From contig NW_003123412.1 of the NCBI RefSeq assembly GCF_000003605.2, positions 360,164 to 394,164 on the forward strand: a stretch of DNA of 34,001 nt, read 5' to 3'. Both the position numbers and the translations under genes were made by a program. The notes beneath the pieces are model-generated. The model was not told the origin of the DNA and made no database searches. It was given only the letters and a program-made list of their open reading frames with translations. This document shows positions 12,846 to 32,209 of this stretch, one piece after another. Numbering within the stretch: position 1 is the first letter of the stretch; each line of letters starts with the position of its first letter. Source of the DNA: Saccoglossus kowalevskii. Taxonomy: Eukaryota > Hemichordata > Enteropneusta > Harrimaniidae.

Positions 12846-15800
12846 CTGAAGTAATTCTACGCATGTTTCAAACTTTAATTTCTAATCTATATTGGAAAAT
12901 TGTTCTGGGGTTTATTAATTTCAACAAAAAACAGTATTCAACCGCAGTAAGATCATTACTTTAATTATATTTACAACACACAAACATTATAATGATAAAG
13001 CTCAAATATCTTACCAAACTTGTTCAAGAATACCGGAAAATATTTCTGCAAAGACAGCTTGCCATTGTAGTTGAGACAAACAACATACACTTCTGAATTA
13101 CCAGACTTGCTAGTGGCTGGTTTGAACACGTGTACCTGCCAAAAAAAAAAATAATTTGACAGTTACAGAAATGAGAATAACTGAAGAAAGCACAAACTTA
13201 TTTATTTTCTCTAGTGGGATGAAATTATTCATGTTAACTGGTATAAATAATGACTTCAGATAATTTGTTATTAGTTTGACAATTTTATCCTGACTATTCC
13301 CCAGCATGCTGGTCAAATGTTGTGGGGGAAAGGGTGGTTTGATCTTCTCAGCTATGACACATCATGTAAACCAGAACTCAACCTTGTTTATTCTTCAATA
13401 ACTTACATACGGATGCTAACTCGTAAACAACTGAAACGAAACTGATAAAACGAGTACCAAAAACATACAACGTTGCTATAGATCGCGTTGAGTAATAATT
13501 TTTAGGGTGGGAGGAGTTCTCATTTACCGATTACAAATATGGTGTTTACTCTTAACGCTCAAAACAAATATTGGCCATATTAAAGCTGGGCGTGCTAGTT
13601 TCTTATAGCATTACATGCAAAAATTGAAATACAGAAAAAACATATGGTTATGAATAAATATTGATAAATCAAATGAATCTCCCCACAAATGTCAAGTTAT
13701 ATTTTTGTAAAATGATAGAGAAACCTGATCGACTCGCACTGGATATTCCATTTAACATTTTTTTTAGTTACAAGGTCATTTATAATGTCTCCAATCATAC
13801 TAATAAACAGAAGTACATTGTGTATATTAAAAATATAGTGAAAAGTTTTGACAAATTTAGTCATTGTTGTGCTTTGTCATTTGCATGCATCGATATATAT
13901 TCACATTTTGATTTAGGAATGTTCATTCTCAGTTCAAATCAGAATTCTAAAACATTTTGGATTAGGACCTATAAACAGAATCCCAAACTTTGTTATGAAA
14001 TTTTGGAAAAATAATATTTCTGATGTATGTTGTATGTTATTTTACTGAATAGGGAGGAAAATCTTTAAGCAGATTTTGAACAAAAAGAAATAATTAATAT
14101 GCCCATTGCTGGGAAGACAGTACACAATTCTATAATGATATTTGTAGTCATTGACAAGTTAGTCAAACAATTCCTTATCATTGTCATAGAGTCCAGACAA
14201 AAGTTTTTTGTTCTGTAATACTGTTATTTAACATTTCAATTTCTTTTTTGTGTTTTTTTTCTCTAATTCTAACATTTTTTCCAATTTTTAATGTAATGCC
14301 ACATTTAATTTGTAATTTATACGGTTCCTATTTATTTACTCAAATAATGAACCCCTGATTCAAAAGGGTAGCAAAAAATAAATCAAAAAAAAAAACTTTG
14401 CACTTATAAAAGAGATGAGTCTATTGTTCACAATTCATTTTAATATGTTGTGTTACCATGACAATATTGTAGTCATTGTGGTAAGGCAATGACACATTAT
14501 TGAATAAACATACCTTATCAAAGACACAATTTAACAAATACATCATTGCGACAGAACTGTGCTCGTACAACGTGAACATCTTGATGACAAGTGTGCCACC
14601 ATCACTCAGACAATACAATGATGTAATTATTTCACAATAGTGCAACTGGTAAACTAACATCTCTTGCTCCGCTGGGTCACATTGACAATCGATGCTTCCA
14701 TCTGCTGTTATCTGTTTTTCAATGGAACAGACATATATTGTTTATAGTTGCATAACTGCATATAGTGAAAATTATGTCACTGACAAAAATTATTTATTGA
14801 GAGGAAACAATACTTCAATATCAAGATCAAGTACATTCAAGTATGAAAGGCAACGCGAGACAATACATTGCATTACAGGATTAATTATCAAGTATTAAAT
14901 AAATCAAAGCAAACACGGAACAAGGTAGAACAATAGCATCCACTCCCCTCTCCCTTTCCATGAGTGTGTAGAATTACAGTAATGCAGGCATAGAATGTAT
15001 TTCTATGGGTTCTACACAAGCTGCTGTAGAATGCCGGTCGAAAAGCCGGTGAAAACAGTTCAAGTCGAGAAAACAGAACAAACTCAACTTTCAAGTGATC
15101 CTGAGCAGTCAAATTTATACATGTTGCACATGGAGGGGTAATTTTGTATACTGTTCAGTTGATTTCCAACAAGTATACCAAAGTACAGTTTTCTGAAAAT
15201 TTTCGACCTTTGTTTTCACCATGATGGTTGCCAGACAGTGAAAATGTCCGGGTGTAGAACGTTGATTATCCGGACTGTTAGGGGGACATGCTTTTTGTTC
15301 GGTTATGCAAACAGTTCGAATATGCGATCTTGTGTGGGCGTGCTCAAATTTACAGGCTCACGTACACACAAATTCTAACGCACATGACTGTAATGAAATC
15401 AAACAATAGTACATGTAGAGTACGTCATTAAAAACATTTTATTTAATCAGTAATACATTGTAATAAAAATGTTGCATGCTGGAATGTTAAAAAATGTTTC
15501 AAAATGTCCGTAAAATGTAGCGATAATAAAGTTCCTTTGCTTCTTTCTTGGGAAAACCAAGTCTCGGAATCAAGTGAAGACGGATTTCTTCAAATGATCA
15601 TCATAGGCTGTTTTCATTATCTTTCATTTCAGTCCTGCATTGAATCCATTTTACTGGAAAAATCCAGCAGCTTTTGTTTTGCCTTGATATCGGATATCGC
15701 TGTATACACAATATTGCCAAATGATTTCATGCTGCTCATCTCTGTATTCTCGCAGGCACCTAACTTATTGCCCCCTCCCCCAAATGTGATACTTCATGCA

Positions 15801-16853
15801 AACATGTATGGTATAGGCATTCAACAATACAGGCAAGAATACCACTTTAAGTGAAAATAATACAAGGTTATTACGAGAATACCTTAAAGTATGCACGAAG
15901 ACAGTACAGCCGGGAGTATCCACCGACATGCAGCGGAGGTCGAAGCGACAGCGTACTGTCTGAGTACTGTCTTGTTTTTATCATCAGAGGACACTTATGA
16001 GTGTAATCATTCCATATTTGGAATTCGCATTTCCCAATATGGTATGATGAAAATACCCAGTAAAATACCGCAAAATCACGACACGCTGTAACTTATGGCA
16101 TTACAGTGACAGATGTATAATAATATTATTTAAAGCATCTTAGCTTACCAGGTGCACAGTTCCCAATTTTTCAGTAATTTTTGCGGCAAGTCCTTTCATA
16201 AGACGTACATCCATTATATCACCAGTGTTGTCTTCGCCAAAGTACCAATTGTTGATAGTTTGATAAATAAACCTGTCATCAGGAATCATGTTACTCAGTG
16301 AATGGTCTTCATAGTATGGGTTCAGAGTCGTTGCCAACCAGTTCCATTCAGTGTCAGGGTTATTGGTTTTAATGTAATGGTTAAGACTGGTTACAAACGC
16401 CCCTGGGGCCTCACATAGATGGACAGTGTTAAGTTTGTTATCACGTATAATATCAAACGTGGCCAGAATCTCATGGAACTTGCACCAAGCCTGGGTACAC
16501 AACTCAAGATTGAATTCAGATCTGATCTGTGGGACAACTCTACCTGCTTTGTTGGTGAACATCGTGTGGGAGTGCCACTTCTCTATATCTTTGTCGCTCA
16601 GTTCAGATTTTGTTAAGTTCAGTTCACATTTCAATTGTTGAAGAACATCGTAAATCTCGTCCTCATCACTGTAAATTTTTTCGACACCTGGTAAACTCCA
16701 TCTTTGTTCTTCGGGAGAGTCAAATGTGAAACGCTTGTTGAACATAGCACTTGCTTCATTGACAATGCCTGGATCATATGTGTCGGAACGCTTGCTCTTC
16801 CCCATCTGGCTTCTGAAGTTCCTGGACCGTTTTCTTTTTCTTCCCATCTTCAA
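3756..16853 (-). CDS. CMTR2: Cap-specific mRNA (nucleoside-2'-O-)methyltransferase 2, 13 exons
   Basis: This enzyme uses S-adenosylmethionine to methylate the 2'-O ribose of the second transcribed nucleotide of capped mRNA (cap 2). Coding exons, 5' to 3': 16149-16853, 14514-14711, 13015-13135, 12450-12712, 11899-12060, 10161-10292, 9531-9644, 8653-8822, 7470-7602, 6884-6982, 6531-6614, 5951-6044, 3756-3862. All junctions are GT..AG and in phase; they total 2382 nt, 793 aa (human about 770). Visible parts: a Lys/Arg-rich N-terminus (residues 3-22, NLS-like), FTNKAG with K102, SAM motif HLCEAPGAF (145-153), TADGS with D239, and LVIKMFTLYE with K279. K102, D239 and K279 fit the K-D-K catalytic set. 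The degenerate C-terminal Rossmann region includes GGGTLIIKTSTFLTRF. An alternative start is the ATG at 16847. The last exon is the least certain: its similarity is weak but its phase is exact. A small additional exon between the exons at 6531 and 5951 cannot be excluded. Exon 8 and exon 13 acceptors lie in tandem duplications. Confidence 0.92.
3841..3915. repeat. 43-bp direct duplication of the CMTR2 exon 13 acceptor
   Basis: ATAAAATGAATATTCTGAAAAAAA occurs twice, 43 bp apart. On the minus strand each copy reads TTTTTTTCAG|AATATTCATTTTATAA, so the last CMTR2 exon has two nearly identical acceptors (exon starts 3862 and 3905). Because 43 is not a multiple of three, the distal acceptor would give a different C-terminus that soon stops. 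Confidence 0.75.
4151..4360 (+). repeat. Dispersed repeat family R1, copy 1
   Basis: Aligns in the same orientation with 24012-24250. The strongest block is AATTCAAAATTTAAGATTAG followed by CCTTTCAAAC and AAGCTTGG, with a second block TACATCTGTGGTTT. One copy sits in the last CMTR2 intron and the other in a SLIMP-like intron. No ends were resolved. Confidence 0.65.
4440..5060. repeat. Degenerate ATGCAAAT-rich repeat cluster
   Basis: Several diverged units share the order AGAGCATCT...ATTATGCAAATTA...AATTAATATGCA...ACTAATCA/ACTAGTCA, with AGAGCATCT starting near 4458, 4803 and 4965. The stretch ends in a short CA run (5028-5038). It looks like an old transposon or tandem repeat within the last CMTR2 intron. 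I could not assign a family. Confidence 0.45.
5100..5420 (+). repeat. Fold-back repeat, copy 1
   Basis: This stretch is homologous to 5555-5835 in the same orientation. Shared blocks are TTGCGTTTTTATTGAAGTTT, GCGAAGCTTA, GGTATGGTA, ACTTAAATTC and TTATGAAAATAGTGAGGG. The centre (about 5255-5345) is a palindrome around an AT-rich loop and is more decayed than in copy 2. Confidence 0.6.
5555..5835 (+). repeat. Fold-back repeat, copy 2, with a long hairpin
   Basis: Between about 5643 and 5759 the arms GTTTGTGAAGCTTA and GGTTTAGTAATGGGGGAAGG (continuing TATGGT) are repeated as inverse complements (ACCATACCTTTCCTC..TTACTAAACC..TAAGCTTCACAAAC). This gives a stem of nearly 40 bp around an ATATTAATATTTATAT loop. 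It is probably a non-autonomous fold-back or MITE element. Confidence 0.65.
8746..9290 (-). repeat. Tandem array seeded by the start of CMTR2 exon 8
   Basis: About seven units, spaced 70-80 bp, with the repeated marker GTAGTTGCTTGGAACATAGT (plus-strand orientation) at 8770, 8841, 8921, 9001, 9071, 9145 and 9215. Read on the minus strand, most units contain a TTGTTCTTTCAG acceptor and the first ~50 nt of exon 8 (AAATTCCAAGAGTCTACTAT). The unit nearest the gene body is the real exon 8. Acceptor AGs survive at 8823/8824, 8903/8904, 8983/8984, 9053/9054 and 9197/9198; the one near 9125 is mutated. Entering at an upstream copy runs into a stop by about 8801, so only the proximal acceptor gives full-length protein. 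Confidence 0.85.
9735..9861. mobile_element. MITE-A, 127 bp with near-perfect terminal inverted repeats
   Basis: It starts GTTATTATGAGAATACAGCA and ends with the inverse complement, GTTATCATAAGAATACAGCA. The first 27 bp differ at two positions, and weaker inverted similarity continues (GCACGAAGGCAGTACAG versus TACTCGGGCCATACAG). There is no coding capacity. It lies in the CMTR2 intron between the exons at 10161 and 9531. A diverged relative is at 15866. Confidence 0.8.
9900..10037 (-). mobile_element. TTAA-flanked MITE-B, left-truncated copy
   Basis: This copy is homologous, in inverse orientation, to 32348-32512. Shared internal blocks are TTGAGTCCCAAGC, ACACAAAGGCTCAT and TTGTTTGTAAACAATGACAC. 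The right end TGCGCAGGAGACGACTCCCC, CGC then TTTAA, is retained with a TTAA at 10034-10037. The left terminal repeat is missing. Confidence 0.75.
10872..11359. other. Assembly gap (488 N)
   Basis: Unsequenced stretch in the CMTR2 intron between the exons at 11899 and 10161. The right edge runs straight into a 157-bp tandem repeat, so the missing sequence is probably more of that array. The open frame spanning it is an artefact of N translation. The flanking CMTR2 exons are in phase without needing an exon inside the gap, although one of a multiple of three cannot be excluded. Confidence 0.95.
11360..11745. repeat. Satellite array, 157-158 bp unit
   Basis: Two full units and a partial third, marked by ATATTCACCAAAATTAGAGA at about 11362, 11519 and 11677. 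Each is followed by AAATGAACAAATCTGAGAGA and, where the unit is complete, AACAAGAAGTCGAAAATATC. Neighbouring units are very similar, indicating recent amplification or homogenisation. The array's left part is hidden in the gap. The third copy breaks off after GAGAGGTCCACAT. Confidence 0.85.
12776..12841. repeat. (AT)n microsatellite
   Basis: 66 bp of uninterrupted alternating TA in the CMTR2 intron, about 60 bp upstream of the exon that starts at 12712. The ATATAT open frame across it is spurious. Confidence 0.95.
15866..15970 (+). mobile_element. MITE-A related fragment
   Basis: It begins GGTTATTACGAGAATACC and continues AAAGTATGCACGAAGACAGTACAG, matching the left end of the element at 9735. 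It keeps the inner GCAGCGGAGGTC and GTACTGTCTGAGTACT blocks but lacks the right terminal repeat. It lies in the first coding-region intron of CMTR2. Confidence 0.6.
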
Positions 16854-16898
16854 ATATTCATCTAATATCTTTCAAACAGTTTTTCTTCGATGTCGCCT
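16854..16898 (-). other. CMTR2 5' UTR segment with an acceptor
   Basis: Upstream of the CMTR2 ATG, the minus strand reads TTTCAATTTTTAG|AGGCGACATCG, a good 3' splice site at 16899/16900. This predicts a 45-nt UTR stretch joined to the ATG exon and an intron running to about 18677. The UTR stretch contains an ATG out of frame with CMTR2 just upstream of the main start. Confidence 0.5.
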
Positions 16899-21246: not shown

Positions 21247-21441
21247 TCACTTCTTCAAGATGATACATATTATGTTATTATTTTCATTCATTATATTCCA
21301 GCAAATATAAATAATATAAAAATTAATATTTTGTGAATTTACACATTCCAAGTGATGTATGACATATGGCACACGTATGGATTCAAAACTACCAAGCTTA
21401 TAATGAACAGATGACAATATGATTCTGGAACATCTGGAATC

Positions 21442-21720
21442 TGGTGATGACATCAATCCGGTTCCAATCTAGTGTTGACATCAATCCTGTTCTAATCTGG
21501 TGTTGACATCAATCCTGTTCCAATCTGGTGTTGACATCAATCCTGTTCCAATCTGGTGTTGACATAAATCCTGTTCCAATCAGGTGTTGACATCAATCCT
21601 GTTCCAATCTGGTGTTGACATCAATCCTGTTCCAATCTGGTGTTGACATCAATTCTATTCCAATCTAGTGTTGACATCAATCCTGTTCCAGAGTCTTGAC
21701 ATCAATTCCCTGGCACCCAA
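21442..21720. repeat. Minisatellite, 28-bp unit, about 9 copies plus a degenerate one
   Basis: The unit is GTGTTGACATCAATCCTGTT then CCAATCTG. Copies run from about 21442 to 21690, and a decayed copy (CTTGACATCAATTCCCTGG) lies at 21694-21713. The right end overlaps the last coding exon of the SLIMP-like gene. Its TGA stop (21677-21679) is the TCAA of a repeat unit read on the minus strand. Confidence 0.9.
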
Positions 21721-24700
21721 ATGTATAAGGCCACAAAGCCGAGGGAAATACGACAGAACCATCCTGAGTAAGAAAGTAAATACAGTTAAACAGAAACTAG
21801 CAATAACTTTTGAATGCACATTATGTATTATGTACCAAATTATTATTGACCAATTGTACAAGGTCACTTGATTGGCTCTTTGGAGTAAACGATAATTTTA
21901 GTTTCATAATTTAATTTAACTGGTTTTTTTAACTATCATTAAAATCTGATTCAACTGATTTGTTGATTGTGATCATAATATGATTTAACTGACATGTTGA
22001 GAATAAAAATGAAATATACATGTAAGGGAATCAATCAATTTGTGGACATATTTCACCTTTTGTTGGCAGTTTTCTAGCAAAATAGCTATAACAGATGGAA
22101 CACACATTGCTGTACCAAACACCTAGAGTTAAGAAGAAGAAACCATAATGTACAAAACTAAATAAGTGACAGATAATAAAGAAGAAAGAGAATGTTCTAC
22201 TCAATTAGGAATGTTGAATAGTGTTTGATCAAAGTCTCAGCAGTGCATTAATGTAGGACTTTTCACTGCTAGAAATGTTCATAATTTTATGATATTTGTG
22301 AAGACAAAATTCAGTAAATATATAAATTATCTAATATTGAACTCACCGTGTGACAATAATGTCGTTTACGACTGATTACAGCAGACTCTGATGGATTGCA
22401 TGGATATCTAAATTTTAATCTTCGACTTATAAAATCAGTGCAGTTATAAACAGATGCTACCTAATAAATAAAAAAAAAATACCATTCACAGTTACCGGTA
22501 TTTGAAAAAAACATATACTATATACTTTAAAATACTTTATTTTAGCTGGAATTAATTTTAGCTGAAAAGTCTTTTCAGGTGTTTTGTATGGAATTTATTT
22601 TCACTGATTTTTGACGAGTTGAATGTAAAATATAGCAAAAAAGGTATATTACATATATATCTAACACAGTAATTTTACTAAAATAAAATTAAAACATAAC
22701 TAACCTCTTGATACGTGTTCTGTGATGGTAACCACATCTGATNNNNNNNNNNNNNNNNNNNNNNNNNNNNNNNNNNNNNNNNNNNNNNNNNNGTGTTCTG
22801 TGATGGTAACCACATCTGTATGGCAGATTTTCTGTACATACATGGGTCTAACTGACCGATAGGTACATTCACCGTTCTAAAAGTACATGTAAACAACCAT
22901 ATAAAGTCACATTTTTGGCATTATCATAAAATTATTTTGTAATATAAATAATAAGAGTGTAATTTCCACAGATAACTGCAACATAATTTGTAACACTGAT
23001 ATTGTAAATCAGATTAAGCAGCAAATTTGAAGGGGAAGTCAAGGCTAACAACATAATGCTCCCCGACCAAAGAGCTTGGCAAATGTAAGAACATGCAATT
23101 TACAGTTTTTTTATATCACTTCTCATTCTCTAGATATTCAATTTTTCATCAATTTATGTAGACCGCCATCTTGATTCTTCAGCAAAGGATTATGGGTAAA
23201 GTATGGCAACATAGAATCTGTTGTCAGAAATTGAGAAAATGATTTCATCTATAGCATGGGAAATACTGATGCAAATTAGTTAGGCTTGACTTGCCCTTTA
23301 AGATTATGCAGCTTTATTCAAGGTGCATAGGCTGGAGTTGACAAGCAGATAGAATTTTTCATCAACTATTAAAAAAGTTGGCCAAGGAAGGCGTTCAAAT
23401 CTCACATCAACTGCAGCAGGTAGAGCTTCTAATGACTGAGCTATTACAGATTCTGATGGCGATTCAGGGAAAATACAGACATTAGGCATTAACTTATGTT
23501 CAGCACTGTGCACCGGCTGGCAATGCAACATATTACCAAATCTTCCAATGTTCCCATTTTTTTCACTCACCGAGAGTGGACGCGGTCACAAGTCGGCACC
23601 AGCGAAATTCTAAAGCCAATTGTTTAGTCAAAACCTAAGAAGTTAGCCAATTCGGTAGCAAGTTTGCAAATTGGCTGCCCCAATACAACACTCACTAATT
23701 GTGTGGGTTTATTGATATGAACATAATTCCACACTTTCTGGTGGTGTTTCTAAAATTTTATTTGTATTGTCACCACATGGTATATAGGTATATAGAATGA
23801 TACTAACCGCATATGTATGTTTAACTGAGAATAAAGATCCTGTAGAAATAATAAATATTCATCCATCAAGTGATTGCTTTCATCAAATGAATTATGAGTT
23901 ATGCCGCACAGCTGGACCTGTAAATAAATTTATCAGTCACTAATGGTAAATTACTTTTAGATTTCAAAAAATGTTCGCACTATCATGAATGAAAGTCTAA
24001 GATCGAATGAAAGAAAGCTTAGAAAGTACTTTAGTGTGCTGAGAGTACTGGAGGCATATTTAGAATTAATTCAAAATTTAAGATTAGCCTTTCAAACAAA
24101 AAGCTTGGCGACTAATGTAGGTCAATTATTTGAAAACCACAAAGTGTGATCCACAATATTCAATTGCTCACAGAAATAAATTTGAATGTACATCTGTGGT
24201 TTGCAGTATAATTTGCAGTCCAAAGCAGTTGTGCCACAAGCTCAATCAATTTGTTAGGTTTGATGAAAAAACATGTTATATGGAAACCAATGCCATGGAA
24301 ACCAATGCCATGGAAACCACATTAAACTAGCATTCTACAGTTTATTACTTTGGCATACATGTATAATTAAATATTCGATTCAATTTTTCTTAAAATCTCA
24401 CCATACTTGATTGCTGCATACTGCATAAACTTGAGAATGTCTTGCTCTCTGAAATGAAATTGTTGAATTGAAGAAATTCCCCAAAAAATGAGAATGAAAA
24501 GTTTTATTAGAAGAGAAAATATTCATGAAACTAATTGATGATTTATTTCTGTAATTTTGAAAAAAAATGTGATGAATTTGTCACTTTGATTTGAAAGACT
24601 TCGATAATATCTTTTGAAACAAAAACTAGAATATCAAAATAAAAGAATATTCTACCTTTTGATGGATCATAATTACGACCAAATGTAAAGCACCTGAGAA

Positions 24701-27700
24701 TAAAAAAAAATCAAAAAAAAAATATTATCATATTAAATAACTTTGGACAAGGGAAAGGAAAATAGACACATGGCTGTTGAGCTAAAGTAAGGATAAATTG
24801 CTGTTTAATTTCAACCGAGACAAATTTCAGTGAAAATCATGAAATTTTGAAGAAGTGAAAACTTCTCTGGGGTCTTATGATGAGAAGTGTCAGAGACGAA
24901 TGCCATAAAGTCGTCAATTCGTGAAAATTTCTAGCAGTGACACTGGCAATTAATCGGCTCACAGTATGTCAACAGAATCGATTTCAATGACGAGAAAATG
25001 TACACCATACCTATGCGGTAAACTGTCATATTCAAAAACAGCCATCATGTAATTAGCTAATGAAAAAAAATAAAAAAGTTTTACAATATCGGTGCTAAGT
25101 AAGCAATACACATGCACCTACAAAGAAAGTTCATTCACAATGCGCATATGTTTAAAGTGAGAAAATAACATAATAAATATTAATATTAATATCAAATAAC
25201 AGGATTGTCATACAAACATTCAAATCACTCAAAATTAGGACATTTAACACAATTTAGAACAATTTGTTTCAACTGAAACTGCCATGTAACATTCAAATGA
25301 TTAATTTTGTCGATCCTAGGGGGTCTGGTATTCATATGCAAATTAAATATTCTTGCTATATAAATTACTTTTTCTGCACAATATATTAATTATCTTGGAT
25401 ATTATTTATCTCACATCAATAGATGGAAATACTTGCATTGTAACAACATTTGTTTGTTTCTTGATACTACAAACGTAAAACATTTTTAAAGGTTTTCAGT
25501 CAGTATTGTGCATGCTCACCATGACCAGTATGTTGACACCAGACTTATAGATACCGAAATGTTAGCCTGTCTCATTGATCCTTCACGTATAGGTGAAATG
25601 AGAGATGATGAATCGTGTAATCATGTATCTATACATGACACTTGCTACGAATATTTCCTTGTTAACAAGTGCATGATGACTTCCTGATCTCAATTCACTC
25701 TATGGTGAAGGTAACCACAACTTGTGCCATTGCTGTGTCATAGTGGCTATGGGCATTCTAGAACTTCCCTAGCAGCATGTGTTATAATCTGATCTGATTC
25801 AGCAACAGAATCTCCATTGCAGCCAAGACTGTACACTCTTTGCAACAGCTGTGTCACAAGCTTTGTGCTTATGTTTTAAATAACATGACCATGATGAAAT
25901 CAAGGCCGGTTTTATTCAGTGATATAATTATTCACTACATAAATGTGCTATACACCACTTACCAGCCAATGACATAATGGAGACTCCAGCAAGATGTAGA
26001 ACATCATCACTAGCGATAACAGAGTAAACCTATCAGGAGATAGAAAGTATATAAATTTCAAATAACGTAAAATTAAATCAGTTCATTGTGCTGTGGTACC
26101 AGGTACTTATCATGCATTTTTATGATTGGTCACATGGTTCACTGGACAGATTGGTTTAAAGAAAAAACAAAAGTGATAATTTGGAAACTTATCTGAGGTT
26201 TGAAGAAATCTGATTCCTTGCTGTGCTATCCATTTAACAAATCAAAAGCTAAGTGGTAATGTTACGATTAATGGATTTTCTATAAAAAAAAATCAAAATC
26301 TCCTTCTTCAGAACCACTAGGCACATTGATCTGAAATTGCATTTTAGTATTTATCTACCAAGGGCATTAGAGTTTACATATCATTAAGTCACATGGTTTG
26401 GCAGCCATCTTGAATTGAATACAAATGGAAACGAGCTCAATTACTCTTACTATCCTGGAGTTTAAAAAGTTTAATTTAACAAAAAGTGACATAAAAATCA
26501 AATTTATCGTAATCACATTGATGTGATATTTAGTATGTTACATCATCTTTGTTAATTTAAAAAATCCTCTCCTACAACAACACAAGACAAAAGCCGCCCA
26601 CGGCGCCAATGTTGTGCCTTTAAAGGCCCAATTCATTTGCCCCAGGCAAGTGTTTATGCTATGCTAATGTGTCCTGTTACCCACTTGCATAACCTATGTT
26701 TACAGAAACTCATAGTTTATTTACAAGCTGATAGCACTAATACTCATAAACATCATAGTGTATAACAGGCATGTCAGACTTGCACAGACCTGAGCACATT
26801 CAAGTTTTCAACATTTCGTTGAACAAATACTGTTATAATAGTTGCAAATTTTTCATTTTACGATAAATCATGTATTATATTGTTTCTCTCAAGATACAGT
26901 TTGAATACAAATATTAAAACATGATAACAAAATTTATTTTATTTTACAACATTTTATTTTATTAAGAAAAATACAACAAATAAACAAGAGACTGTATGCA
27001 AGGGTAGGCAAACGCCAGGATTTATTGAATTCAGGCAAGACAGAAGTCATGTAATAATGATAACATCTAACTTTTCTCAAGTGTAGAATTTTGCATATTT
27101 TTATAAATTTTTCTATAATTTCTTTCTATAATTAAATATACATAAAAATATGCAAAAAGTTAAGCAGATTTATTTAATACAGAAGACAAATGTGGACTTT
27201 GGTATTCAAGGGTTGACTATACCTGTGATGGATCCTCCAGTTCTAATCCACATCCTTCCTAATAAAAACACAACATAAAAAAAATGTCAATATTGTCATT
27301 TAGTAGCTCATAGTTCTGCAATTTACAAACCATGAGGAAAAGAACATTTTTTTTTGGTTTTGACTTTTCACCCATCAAAGATCAAAAATCAAGGTACGTA
27401 AGATTTAATTGGAAATGATCAGTGTTATAGGACAATACCCTGGCCCATAAAGTACTAGGATGTGTGATCGTTAAATTACTTGAAAGCTTACTATATTGTT
27501 AAATACACATTCTTAAACACGGCTCTTTTGAGCATTTTAGGTAATTCCCTCAGATGCTTGTGGATTAACTAACTTCTAGTGAGTATCGCATAGTTATTTT
27601 CCAATTCTTGTTACTTACAAACACTGAAGCAAGGTGAACTATACACAACTGCATTTGTAAACATATGGGCAATATGTTTAAATCGTTCCGTAAACTTATT

Positions 27701-30700
27701 CTATCAGAAGATGACTAAAAGAATCTGTTGTATCACTCATCGCTAACAGTTACACGAAAAGTCAACTCTGCTGTCACCCTGGATTATTTAAATTCTAGTC
27801 TTGTTTTCCTTAGTAATTATCATTGTTTATAATCTTTGAAATAAATGATGGCAGCATCTATGTTATTTTTAGTCATAAAGAAATCCCTCCTACAACAACA
27901 ATGCGAAACAAAAGCCGCCTGCAGTACAGATGTTGTGCATTCAACCCTTTGATCTTTAGCCCTTGACTTCAAAGGCAAATATTTTCACCTTTCACAACAA
28001 AATCAAACCAAATTTTTTTTCAGACAATGGAAAGTACACAAAATGTTGCCTCAAGATGTTGTCAGTATTTGTTTACAATTTTTACAGTAGTTTACAATAA
28101 AATTTACAATACCCAGCATGCAATGCGAAAGTTCTTACCACTATAATAGGCTTGAACATCTCTGGACAGCAGAGATGTAAACAATTATTTTCTTTTAATT
28201 TGTCAGACATCCAAAACAGCAGACCTTGCTCAAGTAAAGCAGCCTCCTTTTTGAGATAACATACACCAGGTTGAACATGAGAATGTCTGCAAAACAAAAG
28301 AAATATGGCACTATTAAAACAAATCGTTCATCGCAACAATTTGCGGCAACTTTATAGTCTATAGCACACATATATAGGTATTAATAAACTAAATGCATAA
28401 GATACATCATAAAATCTCAGGAACTGACATGTTAAATGGTAAAAATATTACTAGGGTGAGTCAAAAAGTTATGCAATTCACTTTATTTCATATTTGAAAT
28501 CCGAAATAACAATAACTGACATTTTACTTTTACTTTAGTTTTATATGTATTGTACTTTATTACTAACATTTTATTGCTGTCAACCAATGGAAATTATTTC
28601 TAAGGATGCAATAAATTCATTATTATTATTATTATTATTATTAAGTTTTGATAAGAATAACTGAAAATTTTCGTAGTTTCAGGGATGATTATATCATTTA
28701 CGTATTGACATATTTTGTTTCTTACTTTTTAGGTTTTCAGATTTGTAAGAAAAATTCAAATTGGCTACCCCCCCTTAGAGTTGTATAAAAATAAATAGCA
28801 CTGATTGAATTTCTTGTTGCTAAGACAGAAACCCCTGTAGGCATTCACAGATGATTACAAAATGTCTTTGATGACAATACTTTACATTATAGCAATGTAT
28901 GCTGGTTGGTCCATTGTCTGAAAGATGAAAAAGTGACAACTGTGAGTGCAAAGGTCATTAGGAAATTAGGATGCTCAAGTTGTCATTCTGGTTGATAACT
29001 AGCCAAAAGGAAAAAAATAAGTTATGAGACCTACACAATGTACATTGAGACCCTGACGAGGCTCAGAGCAAGAATCGAGTAAGATCCAACTTGCCAATCG
29101 ACAATTATCTGCATGCGAATAATCAACCACACACAAGCATCTGGACAAGGGGGACTCATTTGGGTGGACAACTTTACCACATCCTCATTACTCACCAGGT
29201 TTAGCACCTTCAGACTATCATCTCTTCAGCCCCATGAAAGTGGGTTTGAAAGGCAAATATTATTCCAGTGACAAGGAAGTGAAAACTGTAGTGAAGAAGT
29301 GGTTCAATAAACAGTCAACAGAATTTGACAGGGCAGAAATACATGCTCTCATTCAAAGGTGGAACATGGGATGTGATCCACAGAGGACCAGCTTCATTTT
29401 AATGTGTGGTATATGTTCCTGTGTTGGTAATTATACCTGTTCTGAACAAAATGGCATTACTTTTTGGCTCACCCTTGTAGATTCTAAAATTATGTGGTTT
29501 ATGTAAAATTATAAGCCATATTACAGATCCAACCACAAAACAGAATGACATAAATATCACACGACAGGATAGTGCAATCTCTCGCACAAAAATAAAATGA
29601 CCAACACACAGTTGGTCTGTTAAAATCAAACCACTAAAATATATTATGTGCATAACAATATTTAAACACTTACTCAAAGGACAGGACATCCAAGACTTTT
29701 CCCAGAACCACATGGTTTTTGATCCATGGTTGTAATTTTAGCTGATCACCAAATCTATGTGTTATAAGTTCAGTCATACCAGATGGCTATGAAGTAAATA
29801 ACACTAATCAAGCACTGAAATGTGAGCGTTCTTTCATTCTTACATTGAGATGTGGTTCAGGTTGAGCCAAAATGCTGGCTGGCTGTACATATGCAAACAG
29901 GTAGCACCTAGAAAGCTGGCTATGCATATGTGAACAGCACCTAGACATCTGGCTATGCATATGCGAACAGCACCTAGACAGCTGGTTATGCATGAATTTT
30001 TAGTCAACAAAAAATACATGATCAATTCAAAATTCAATTTCTAGCTAATTTGCATATTATCATAAATATATGTCTTGATACATGTGACCAGGTGTTTACT
30101 TAGGTGGTATCACAAAGAAGACTTTAGTTCAGTGTGAGTTAATATATAGCCATGGGAAAAAAATGCAGCACTTTCCCTTTGACGTTAATTTCGTGTTTGA
30201 ATATTTGCATTCATTATTGTCAACTTGGTAAAAATGCAGAGGAGTTCTTCTGCTACAATTTTATTGCATCTTCAAGATCAGATTTTTTATAAAATGTTAG
30301 CTTTTATATAGTGATATATACCAACTGAGGGAAAGGTGTGTACTTACCGTGTTAGAATGTGTAAAGTTTGGGAGTTTCAGTACAATATTGTATAATTCTT
30401 CAGATACATTAGAATATAAACTCTATAAAAATATAGAATAGATATGGAAGTTTATTTTTAGTGGTTGCAGAGAAATTTCACTAGGTTTTAAATTGTCTAG
30501 TTTGTGAAAAAAAAACAATACTTGACCTTAATACCAGAGATAATGTATGGTAGCTAGGCTTAAAATAAATAGAAATGCTGTTTTTAGCAGTACCACATGT
30601 TAACACCAGCATTAGGTAGTTACTAATATCTTAGTTATCATATGCGCAATTGCAGTAAGAATAGAAATTTTTATAGTTACTACAAAAAAGTGAACGAGTG

Positions 30701-32209
30701 TGAAAAGTTGAAAAGCAAGCTGTATGCATCGGAAGAATCACATCACGGTTTATATTGGTAAAACAGTAGAATTGTGTACATCAGCGTTCTGGTGACAGTC
30801 ATGCTGGTAAAAACCAGACCATCTTTACGCTTACTTTAATTTTTTTCAATTCATTTCGTAGCCGTTTACTTTCATCTTTCATTTGTTGTATTTCATCAGA
30901 AGTTGAGTTTTCCTGTAAGTAACATTAAACAAGTCATAGTAAAGAAAACTGAAACAAGTCGGCCATTTTGAAACAACACTTGAAATGAATATATGACTTT
31001 TGTATATGCAATACAAGATATATACGATAGTGGAACAGCAATTAGTAAAAACAAAACGACAACCAGTCGGCCATTTTGAATCTGATCTGAAAAACAAAAA
31101 GTTTGAATTAAATCTGACATGCACAAAGAGATCCAGTTGAGGAGTTGCAGAGATGCTTGAATTCGATTGTGATACAAATGCATTGATGCATGTCAGAGAT
31201 ATGGCTCAGAACAAAAAACATTAAAACAAAATGGCCACCAGTCAGCCATTTTGATTGCATGATGGTGAATCTACAGAATTTAAACAAAATTTGACCATGC
31301 ACGACCCAGATTAGGTTTTCTTATATGACAGAAATGCTTGATTTTGATGAATTTTTAACTTGACCATCAACAAAGATTTATATACTGGTATATTAGTCAC
31401 TGACCTGTTTGACCTTTTTCACTAACTGATTCACTTTTTTCTTCTGAATTTCAAGTTGGTCAACTGCAACCTTGTGCTGTTGCATATCCTTCCATAGAGA
31501 TGCCTACATTTGAAAGGTGTACGTGTTTGTATAGAATGCAAATTATTTTACTATATTAAGTGTTCTATCAATTAGTAGTGCATGCGCTTACACAATGATG
31601 TATCTGAAACTTTATTGTATTTTAAAAATCCAGATCCTAAACAGGATATGATTTCAATAAAGGCATTATTATTATTATTATTATTATTATTGATCAGGAT
31701 GCGTACATACCATGATGCTATTTGTTAATAAAACTGTCGCTTCATTTAATTTATATATTATCCACATTTGAGTGGGCCATGGTGGTAATTGTTTTACCTC
31801 CATAGACAGGGAATTATCATAACTCTTAATAGTTGCTTACCAAAGCTTTGAAATCAATCAACGTATTCCTGGCTTTCACATTCCTTTCCATTAAATCGAT
31901 ATTATTCATAATACCGCTGATATCAATGTCTGGTCGACTGATAAAGGGCACCCTCTCTCCTTTGCTGACCGGCGTGTACAACGTAGAAGATGATCTACAG
32001 ATGAAAGCATTCACTTGACGGCAAGCAATGTGGATCATATAAACACGATCGTTGATCACACCATGGAATAACCTTAAGTTATGACATAAATGAATTATCG
32101 GCGAAGCCATTTGATGTCCAGTATTAATTTTTGACAGTTTGACGCAAAACCACAGCATACTTCTCGTTACGATTACTACAGTGCACAACAGACGTAAAAA
32201 CCAAAACAT
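21677..32209 (-). CDS. SLIMP: Catalytically dead mitochondrial seryl-tRNA synthetase paralogue (SLIMP-like), 16 exons
   Basis: Exons, 5' to 3': 31841-32209, 31405-31503, 30835-30912, 30348-30422, 29674-29786, 28139-28286, 27223-27258, 25963-26029, 25011-25056, 24656-24693, 24402-24448, 23808-23917, 22705-22876 (contains a false gap), 22347-22460, 22057-22122, 21677-21763. All junctions are GT..AG and in phase. With the gap collapsed the CDS is 1587 nt, 528 aa (human SARS2 518). A hydrophobic, Arg/Lys-containing N-terminus looks like a mitochondrial targeting peptide. Next come a RPDIDISGIMNNIDLMERN SerRS start, a Lys-rich coiled-coil tRNA arm (exons 2-3), VLKLPNFTH, and YNCTDFISRRL, well conserved. 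Lost: the serine-site TxE (LAGVSIMSLA), motif 2 RxE (CFTFGRN), and the motif 3 Arg (CVPSVIAILLE). Known insect SLIMP is mitochondrial, essential and non-aminoacylating; a similar role here is inferred. A decayed active SARS2 is less likely given the intact frame. Confidence 0.87.
22516..22640. mobile_element. MITE-C related fragment
   Basis: CTTTAAAATACTTTATTTTAGCTGGAATTAATTTTAGCTG matches the left end of the element at 17805 with several changes. A right part TGGAATTTATTTTCACTGA..GACGAGTTGAATGTAAAATA matches its inner right arm in inverse orientation. It lies in a SLIMP-like intron. Confidence 0.6.
22743..22792. other. Artefactual 50-N gap inside a SLIMP-like exon
   Basis: The 26 bases before the gap (from 22715) and after it (from 22793) are identical: GTGTTCTGTGATGGTAACCA then CATCTG. 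Collapsing them gives a 94-nt exon (1 + 31 codons) that joins both neighbours in phase and aligns with SerRS. The gap is a placeholder between overlapping contig ends, not missing sequence. Confidence 0.85.
23027..23301. mobile_element. MITE-E, 275 bp
   Basis: The left end TTGAAGGGGAAGTCAAGGCT and the inverse complement of the right end TTAAAGGGCAAGTCAAGCCT match at 17 of 20 positions, and both continue AAC. The interior carries CCGCCATCTTGA (23163-23174), a YY1-type motif. It lies in the SLIMP-like intron between the exons at 23808 and 22876. The open frame 23304-23570 next to it shows no family similarity. Confidence 0.75.
24012..24250 (+). repeat. Dispersed repeat family R1, copy 2
   Basis: Second copy of the 4151-4360 repeat, sharing AATTCAAAATTTAAGATTAG, CCTTTCAAAC and ACATCTGTGGTTT in the same order. 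It is moderately diverged. Confidence 0.65.
24278..24322 (+). repeat. Short 15-bp tandem repeat
   Basis: ATGGAAACCAATGCC occurs about 2.7 times in tandem. The frame across it (24130-24330, METNAMETNAMET) is spurious. Confidence 0.85.
26560..26625 (+). repeat. Dispersed repeat family R3, copy 1
   Basis: CTCCTACAACAACACAAGACAAAAGCCGCC followed by a GATGTTGTGC/AATGTTGTGC block is shared with 27885-27945 in the same orientation. Both copies lie in SLIMP-like introns. The flanking 26300-26560 also looks repetitive (GGCAGCCATCTTGAATTGAA) but has no second copy in this window. Confidence 0.6.
27885..27945 (+). repeat. Dispersed repeat family R3, copy 2
   Basis: Carries CCTCCTACAACAACAATGCG, AAACAAAAGCCGCC and GATGTTGTGC, matching 26560-26625. 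The ends are undefined. Confidence 0.6.
28505..28643 (+). mobile_element. Retroposon-like 3' tail nested in the mariner
   Basis: ACCAATGGAAATTATTTCTA, then AGGATGCAATAAATTCATTA, run into about eight ATT triplets. An AATAAA followed by ATT repeats is typical of non-LTR retrotransposon or SINE 3' ends in invertebrates. The left limit is approximate and the family was not identified. Confidence 0.45.
28806..29370 (+). pseudogene. Mariner transposase remnant
   Basis: The frame at 28806 reads IEFLVAKTETPVGIHR, then a stop and LQNVFDD, the N-terminal helix-turn-helix start typical of mariner transposases. The C-terminal part is recognisable from about 29180: HYSPGLAPSDYHLFSPMK, followed by LKGKYYSSDKEVKTVVKKWF and IHALIQRW. 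The middle, including the first catalytic Asp residues, is missing or scrambled. It cannot encode an active transposase. The 90-codon frame at 29234-29506 is the tail of this remnant running through the terminal repeat. Confidence 0.85.
29878..29995 (+). repeat. 33-bp tandem repeat, about 3.5 copies
   Basis: The unit is CAGCACCTAGACATCTGGCT followed by ATGCATATGCGAA. Each unit carries an ATGCATATG octamer-like element. It lies in a SLIMP-like intron just upstream of the exon that starts at 29786. The minus-strand Cys/Ser-rich frames across it are translated repeat. Confidence 0.85.
30947..31350 (+). repeat. Irregular repeat carrying GGCCATTTTG modules
   Basis: AGTCGGCCATTTTGA or AGTCAGCCATTTTGA occurs three times (30957, 31065, 31240). 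The latter two are about 175 bp apart and share further blocks (GACATGCAC/GACCATGCAC, AGAGATGCTTGA/AGAAATGCTTGA). CAAAATGGCCACCAGTCAGC then CATTTTG is a local inverted repeat. It lies in an intron of the SLIMP-like gene. Confidence 0.6.
31600..31691 (+). mobile_element. Second retroposon-like (ATT)n tail
   Basis: GATTTCAATAAAGGCATTAT followed by about seven ATT triplets (to 31691). As at 28505, AATAAA precedes a simple repeat. Only the 3' end is recognisable. Confidence 0.45.

Follow-up and report, generated by a model that had tools for sequence, protein, structure and literature searches.

The results presented here reveal that a 34,001-nucleotide stretch of DNA (the window) harbors a real, intact-looking gene for a relative of mitochondrial seryl-tRNA synthetase (SerRS). 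The gene is very likely the SLIMP of an acorn worm (Enteropneusta, Hemichordata), most probably Saccoglossus. SLIMP is related to SerRS but lacks a working active site, and it helps a partner enzyme to charge tRNA in animal mitochondria (de Potter et al., PMC10570016, cited throughout from excerpts). The SLIMP assignment is supported by the residues lost and retained, a long branch, a mitochondrial contig of hemichordate type, and the published occurrence of SLIMP in hemichordates. Three points count against it: SerRS2alpha, the partner said always to be present, was not found in the searches described below; exon 13 contains a gap; and the mitochondrial tRNA-Ser has A73.

According to the excerpts of PMC10570016, SLIMP occurs in most of the invertebrate taxa that were surveyed, among them hemichordates, and the duplication that gave rise to it is assigned to the base of Bilateria. 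It is described there as monophyletic, with the hemichordate sequences inside the group, and as fast evolving. It is also described as always accompanied by SerRS2alpha, with hemichordates carrying both genes. The main text of that paper does not name Saccoglossus. The finding is correct and not new, SLIMP being already known both in kind and in this phylum. An initial annotation of this DNA had treated SLIMP as an insect trait and its wider spread as a novelty, a view that is outdated given the range reported in PMC10570016.

Gene structure

The gene was rebuilt from reading frames and splice signals as 16 exons on the minus strand, running from 32209 to 21677 (Table 1). Each of the 15 introns has GT at its start and AG at its end, and the phases are compatible at every junction, which bears out the 16-exon model of the initial annotation. 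The stop codon is TGA (21679-21677, minus strand). A 28-bp minisatellite of nine copies (21438-21690) covers the stop, and the last few codons are repeat unit.

The run of N in exon 13 and the 26-bp direct repeat beside it are probably an unclosed assembly overlap. Once the repeat is collapsed the protein comprises 528 codons plus the stop. The uncollapsed exon also keeps the frame and gives 554 residues, including 17 X. The gene had been called intact over 528 codons, a statement that was partly inferred, since the gap was not mentioned with it. The frame without a stop stands; the figure of 528 depends on collapsing the repeat.

The start codon is uncertain. M1, M18, M34 and M57 are all in frame, and M1 comes immediately after an in-frame stop. 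The first 40 residues contain four K/R and no D/E, and the N-terminal extension is possibly a mitochondrial presequence.

Table 1. Exons of the probable SLIMP gene, with positions in the window
Feature	Positions	Strand	Content
Exon 1	31841..32209	-	N-terminal extension (possible presequence) and start of the SerRS N-terminal domain; start codon ambiguous
Exon 2	31405..31503	-	Coiled-coil arm; Pfam Seryl_tRNA_N at residues 95-202, E 5e-11
Exon 3	30835..30912	-	Coiled-coil arm, includes R175 (aligned to human SARS2 R146)
Exon 4	30348..30422	-	End of coiled coil, LPNFTH junction
Exon 5	29674..29786	-	Start of catalytic-like domain
Exon 6	28139..28286	-	Motif 1 region
Exon 7	27223..27258	-	EGCGLELEDPSQ
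Exon 8	25963..26029	-	VSI in place of the serine-site TAE
Exon 9	25011..25056	-	Splice signals and frame
Exon 10	24656..24693	-	Motif 2, without R and E
Exon 11	24402..24448	-	Degenerate motif 2 loop, LCSMQQSSM against LYRVHxFTK of the enzymes
Exon 12	23808..23917	-	Splice signals and frame
Exon 13	22705..22876	-	50-N gap (22743-22792) between two copies of a 26-bp stretch
Exon 14	22347..22460	-	NCTDFISRRL block kept
Exon 15	22057..22122	-	Motif 3, N to F (480) and R to S (488)
Exon 16 and stop	21677..21763	-	C-terminal end with short C-tail; stop inside the 28-bp minisatellite

Relationship to mitochondrial SerRS

Judged by sequence comparison, homology to mitochondrial SerRS is far beyond chance. 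Among solved structures, the protein comes closest to two mitochondrial SerRS chains, 1wle and 7tzb (E 2.8e-51); the best cytoplasmic SerRS structure reaches 1.1e-25. Further down the list of solved structures is 2dq3 (E 4.4e-35), which we take to be a bacterial-type SerRS. The TIGR00414 serS model matches residues 95-513 with an E-value of 4.4e-54 and 184 bits, below its curated cut-off of 301.65. The Pfam coiled-coil match spans model positions 2-107 of 108, whereas the Pfam match to the class II core is weak (3.3e-5) and under its cut-off. Compared with mammalian SARS2/SerRS2 (PDB 1wle, 7tzb and 7u2a), the domain order is the same, and identity to the human SARS2 stretch is 31%.

A search of the genome with the gene's own protein gave 16 matches at E 10 or better. 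Fifteen lie on its own contig, and the remaining one is a cytosolic SerRS with 32% identity. One copy of SLIMP was found in the assembly.

A tree of 13 catalytic-domain rows included no animal SLIMP or SerRS2alpha. The branch of the SLIMP protein is very long (5.99), and its composition is unlike that of the other rows. Its placement in this tree carries no weight. The branch length appears in line with the published fast evolution of SLIMP. In a tree without insect SLIMP, so long a branch would also fit a dead SerRS duplicate confined to this lineage, with an origin separate from insect SLIMP. Such an origin is very unlikely: the combination of losses and retentions is the same as in SLIMP, and the excerpts of PMC10570016 place hemichordate sequences within a monophyletic SLIMP. 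We infer from the sequence that the gene is an ortholog of insect SLIMP.

Loss of the active site and retention of the tRNA-binding arm

The protein was aligned with 10 canonical SerRSs, namely the human and bovine mitochondrial enzymes and eight bacterial loci chosen from 80 listed. Of 80 columns invariant in these 10 sequences, the SLIMP protein keeps 37 and loses 43. In a leave-one-out control, the canonical row set apart lost between 0 and 11 of the columns on which the remaining nine agree. The serine-site TAE (at 322-324), the motif-2 R and E (around 352-353) and the motif-3 N and R are invariant in 10/10 canonical rows, and all are replaced or gone. Most of the motif-2 loop LYRVHxFTKxEMF is also lost. 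Decay extends beyond the catalytic signatures, with other losses, for example, around 225-229 and 419-439. The class II catalytic residues of a functional SARS2 are lacking, and the SLIMP protein alone should be unable to activate serine.

The tRNA-binding coiled coil, by contrast with the pocket, has persisted. The NCTDFxSRRL block is also kept (446-455), except that the Q of the enzymes at position x is missing. The coiled coil retains its arginine, R175, which aligns with human SARS2 R146. The C-tail is short by length: 14 residues follow the final position of the alignment, compared with 33 in human SARS2 (7u2a, 485 of 518). The four SLIMP features looked for in the sequence were all found: a mitochondrial-type SerRS, a collapsed pocket, a coiled coil with its arginine, and a lost C-tail. 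These observations uphold the earlier claims that all three catalytic signatures are changed and that the coiled coil and NCTDF-x-SRRL are kept.

The protein resembles published SLIMP in its mitochondrial SerRS type, its coiled coil with the critical arginine, its collapsed active site, its reduced C-tail and its long branch; no distinguishing protein feature was found in this comparison. Mammalian SARS2 differs from the acorn worm protein in retaining TAE, the motif-2 R and E, the motif-3 N and R, and a longer C-tail. SerRS2alpha, which descends from the same parent gene as SLIMP, has kept the active site and lost the coiled coil, according to the excerpts of PMC10570016; the acorn worm gene is the reverse.

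The mitochondrial contig

A COX1 search led to a mitochondrial contig of 17,037 bases in the same assembly. Its genes other than COX1 and cytochrome b were named by eye. Aligned to the best solved chains, which are presumably mammalian, nine COX1 ATA codons fall at Ile (5), Val (2), Leu (1) and Met (1), and eight cytochrome b ATA codons at Ile (3), Val (2), Ala (1), Phe (1) and Ser (1). ATG falls at Met in 17/19 cases in COX1 and 3/4 in cytochrome b. AAA falls at Lys in 1/1 and 4/5 cases, respectively, and never at Asn. The 11 mitochondrial gene stretches contain four AGA and no AGG; one AGG occurs in the frame ahead of COX3. The tRNA-Lys carries the anticodon TTT. Cytochrome b comes after ND5, and ND2 rather than ND1 after the 16S region. 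COX1 lies on the strand opposite to most of the mitochondrial genes.

For Saccoglossus kowalevskii, excerpts of PMC3121625 report AUA as Ile, AAA as Lys, AGG missing or unpredictable, a tRNA-Lys with UUU, an inversion of COX1 and a transposition of ND1 or ND2. Excerpts of PMC2697986 concur on ATA, AAA and the nd5-cob neighbourhood. The contig fits these published Saccoglossus traits. The assembly is thus most probably that of Saccoglossus or a close relative, assuming that the contig comes from the same animal as the gene. Together with the residue pattern, the hemichordate type of the contig agrees with the initial description of a SLIMP-like dead SerRS in a non-insect invertebrate.

The mitochondrial tRNA-Ser(GCU) (C4830:4442-4509) has A73 at its end, a feature in which the host departs from published SLIMP systems. 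According to excerpts of PMC10570016, U73 is usual among invertebrates, and human tRNA-Ser(GCU) was not charged by the Drosophila enzyme until its A73 had been changed to U. A73 counts against the SLIMP assignment; in the test of that paper the Drosophila heterodimer needs U73.

Search for the catalytic partner

The assembly was searched for SerRS2alpha with 11 queries: PF00587, the SLIMP protein, TIGR00414, PF02403, 402 aa of human SARS2, the pattern NCTD[FY]Q, a consensus SerRS catalytic domain, human segments of 70 aa and 134 aa, the pattern TC[FY]RAE[TA], and an NCTD[FY]Q[ST]RR-type pattern with <=2 mismatches. Exons were searched singly, and apart from exon 1 the SLIMP exons span some 12 to 50 codons. 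SerRS2alpha was not found with any of the 11 queries, which is weak evidence of absence from this assembly, as 9 of the 11 also miss SLIMP itself. Only the own-protein query and the NCTD[FY]Q[ST]RR-type pattern returned SLIMP; the patterns NCTD[FY]Q and TC[FY]RAE[TA] cannot match it. The initial annotation had held that placement inside SARS2, with no second SARS2 in the genome, would tell against SLIMP. At face value the null result supplies half of that case, from searches of low sensitivity.

The TC[FY]RAE[TA] pattern and the 134 aa query gave no match in the assembly. The two matches to NCTD[FY]Q do not resemble a SerRS on reading. The NCTD[FY]Q[ST]RR-type pattern gave 11 matches. One is the SLIMP gene, a positive control for the NCTDFQ-type block; nine others were read and none looks SerRS-like, and the eleventh is identical in sequence to a member of these nine. 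A match on C351 was set aside as a prolyl-type synthetase exon, named by eye. The TIGR00414 and PF02403 queries gave weak matches on C2727, C2221, C2665, C3226, C3427 and C2597 (E 0.1 to 8).

A cytosolic SerRS was found on contig C3160. The solved structure closest to it (1.5e-141) marks it as cytoplasmic; the best mitochondrial chain reaches 1e-42. This gene (C3160:1269405-1271567) has a pair of similar first exons, separated by about 2 kb, whose upstream reading frames differ. The twin exons may be alternative starts, a partial duplication or an assembly artefact.

It could be argued that the gene in the window is the only mitochondrial SerRS gene of this animal and is decaying to a pseudogene, while another enzyme, such as an isoform of the cytosolic SerRS, serves the mitochondria. 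No second mitochondrial SerRS was found with the 11 queries, and the twin first exons on C3160 would in principle allow two isoforms. Decay is nevertheless extremely unlikely. The reading frame of 528 codons in 16 exons has no stop and intact splice sites, and the catalytic signatures are lost while NCTDFxSRRL, the coiled coil and R175 persist. Moreover, excerpts of PMC10570016 report both genes in hemichordates, and a SerRS2alpha with short exons could be missed by searches that mostly miss SLIMP. The least probable of the readings considered is a SLIMP without a separate SerRS2alpha, which would pair with, or hand tRNA to, another catalytic SerRS, for instance a mitochondrial form produced from the cytosolic SerRS gene with its twin first exons. 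SerRS2alpha is treated here as missed by the searches or absent from the assembly, because hemichordates carry both genes according to PMC10570016.

Proposed function

Taking the gene to be SLIMP, a function can be proposed by analogy with Drosophila. There, excerpts of PMC10570016 describe a heterodimer with one tRNA site, in which the coiled coil comes from SLIMP and the active site from SerRS2alpha, and report that SLIMP R123, the counterpart of human R146, is needed for charging. The acorn worm SLIMP would likewise pair in the mitochondrion with a catalytic SerRS2alpha subunit. It would supply the coiled-coil arm that grips mitochondrial tRNA-Ser through R175, and the two proteins would make a heterodimer with a single active site that may charge this tRNA.

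Hemichordates are the sister phylum of echinoderms. In echinoderms the evolution of the heterodimer is less far advanced, according to excerpts of PMC10570016. The distribution and mechanism of SLIMP are already published; the gene model of a hemichordate SLIMP could help to date the loss of catalysis and the loss of the partner's coiled coil.

Neighbouring features

Intron 5 contains an open frame on the plus strand (29123-29503) that by eye resembles the end of a mariner-type transposase; no Pfam family matched it at E 0.01. Elsewhere in the window, a gene on the minus strand (14424-16871) has two FtsJ-like methyltransferase stretches and is presumably the cap methyltransferase CMTR2.
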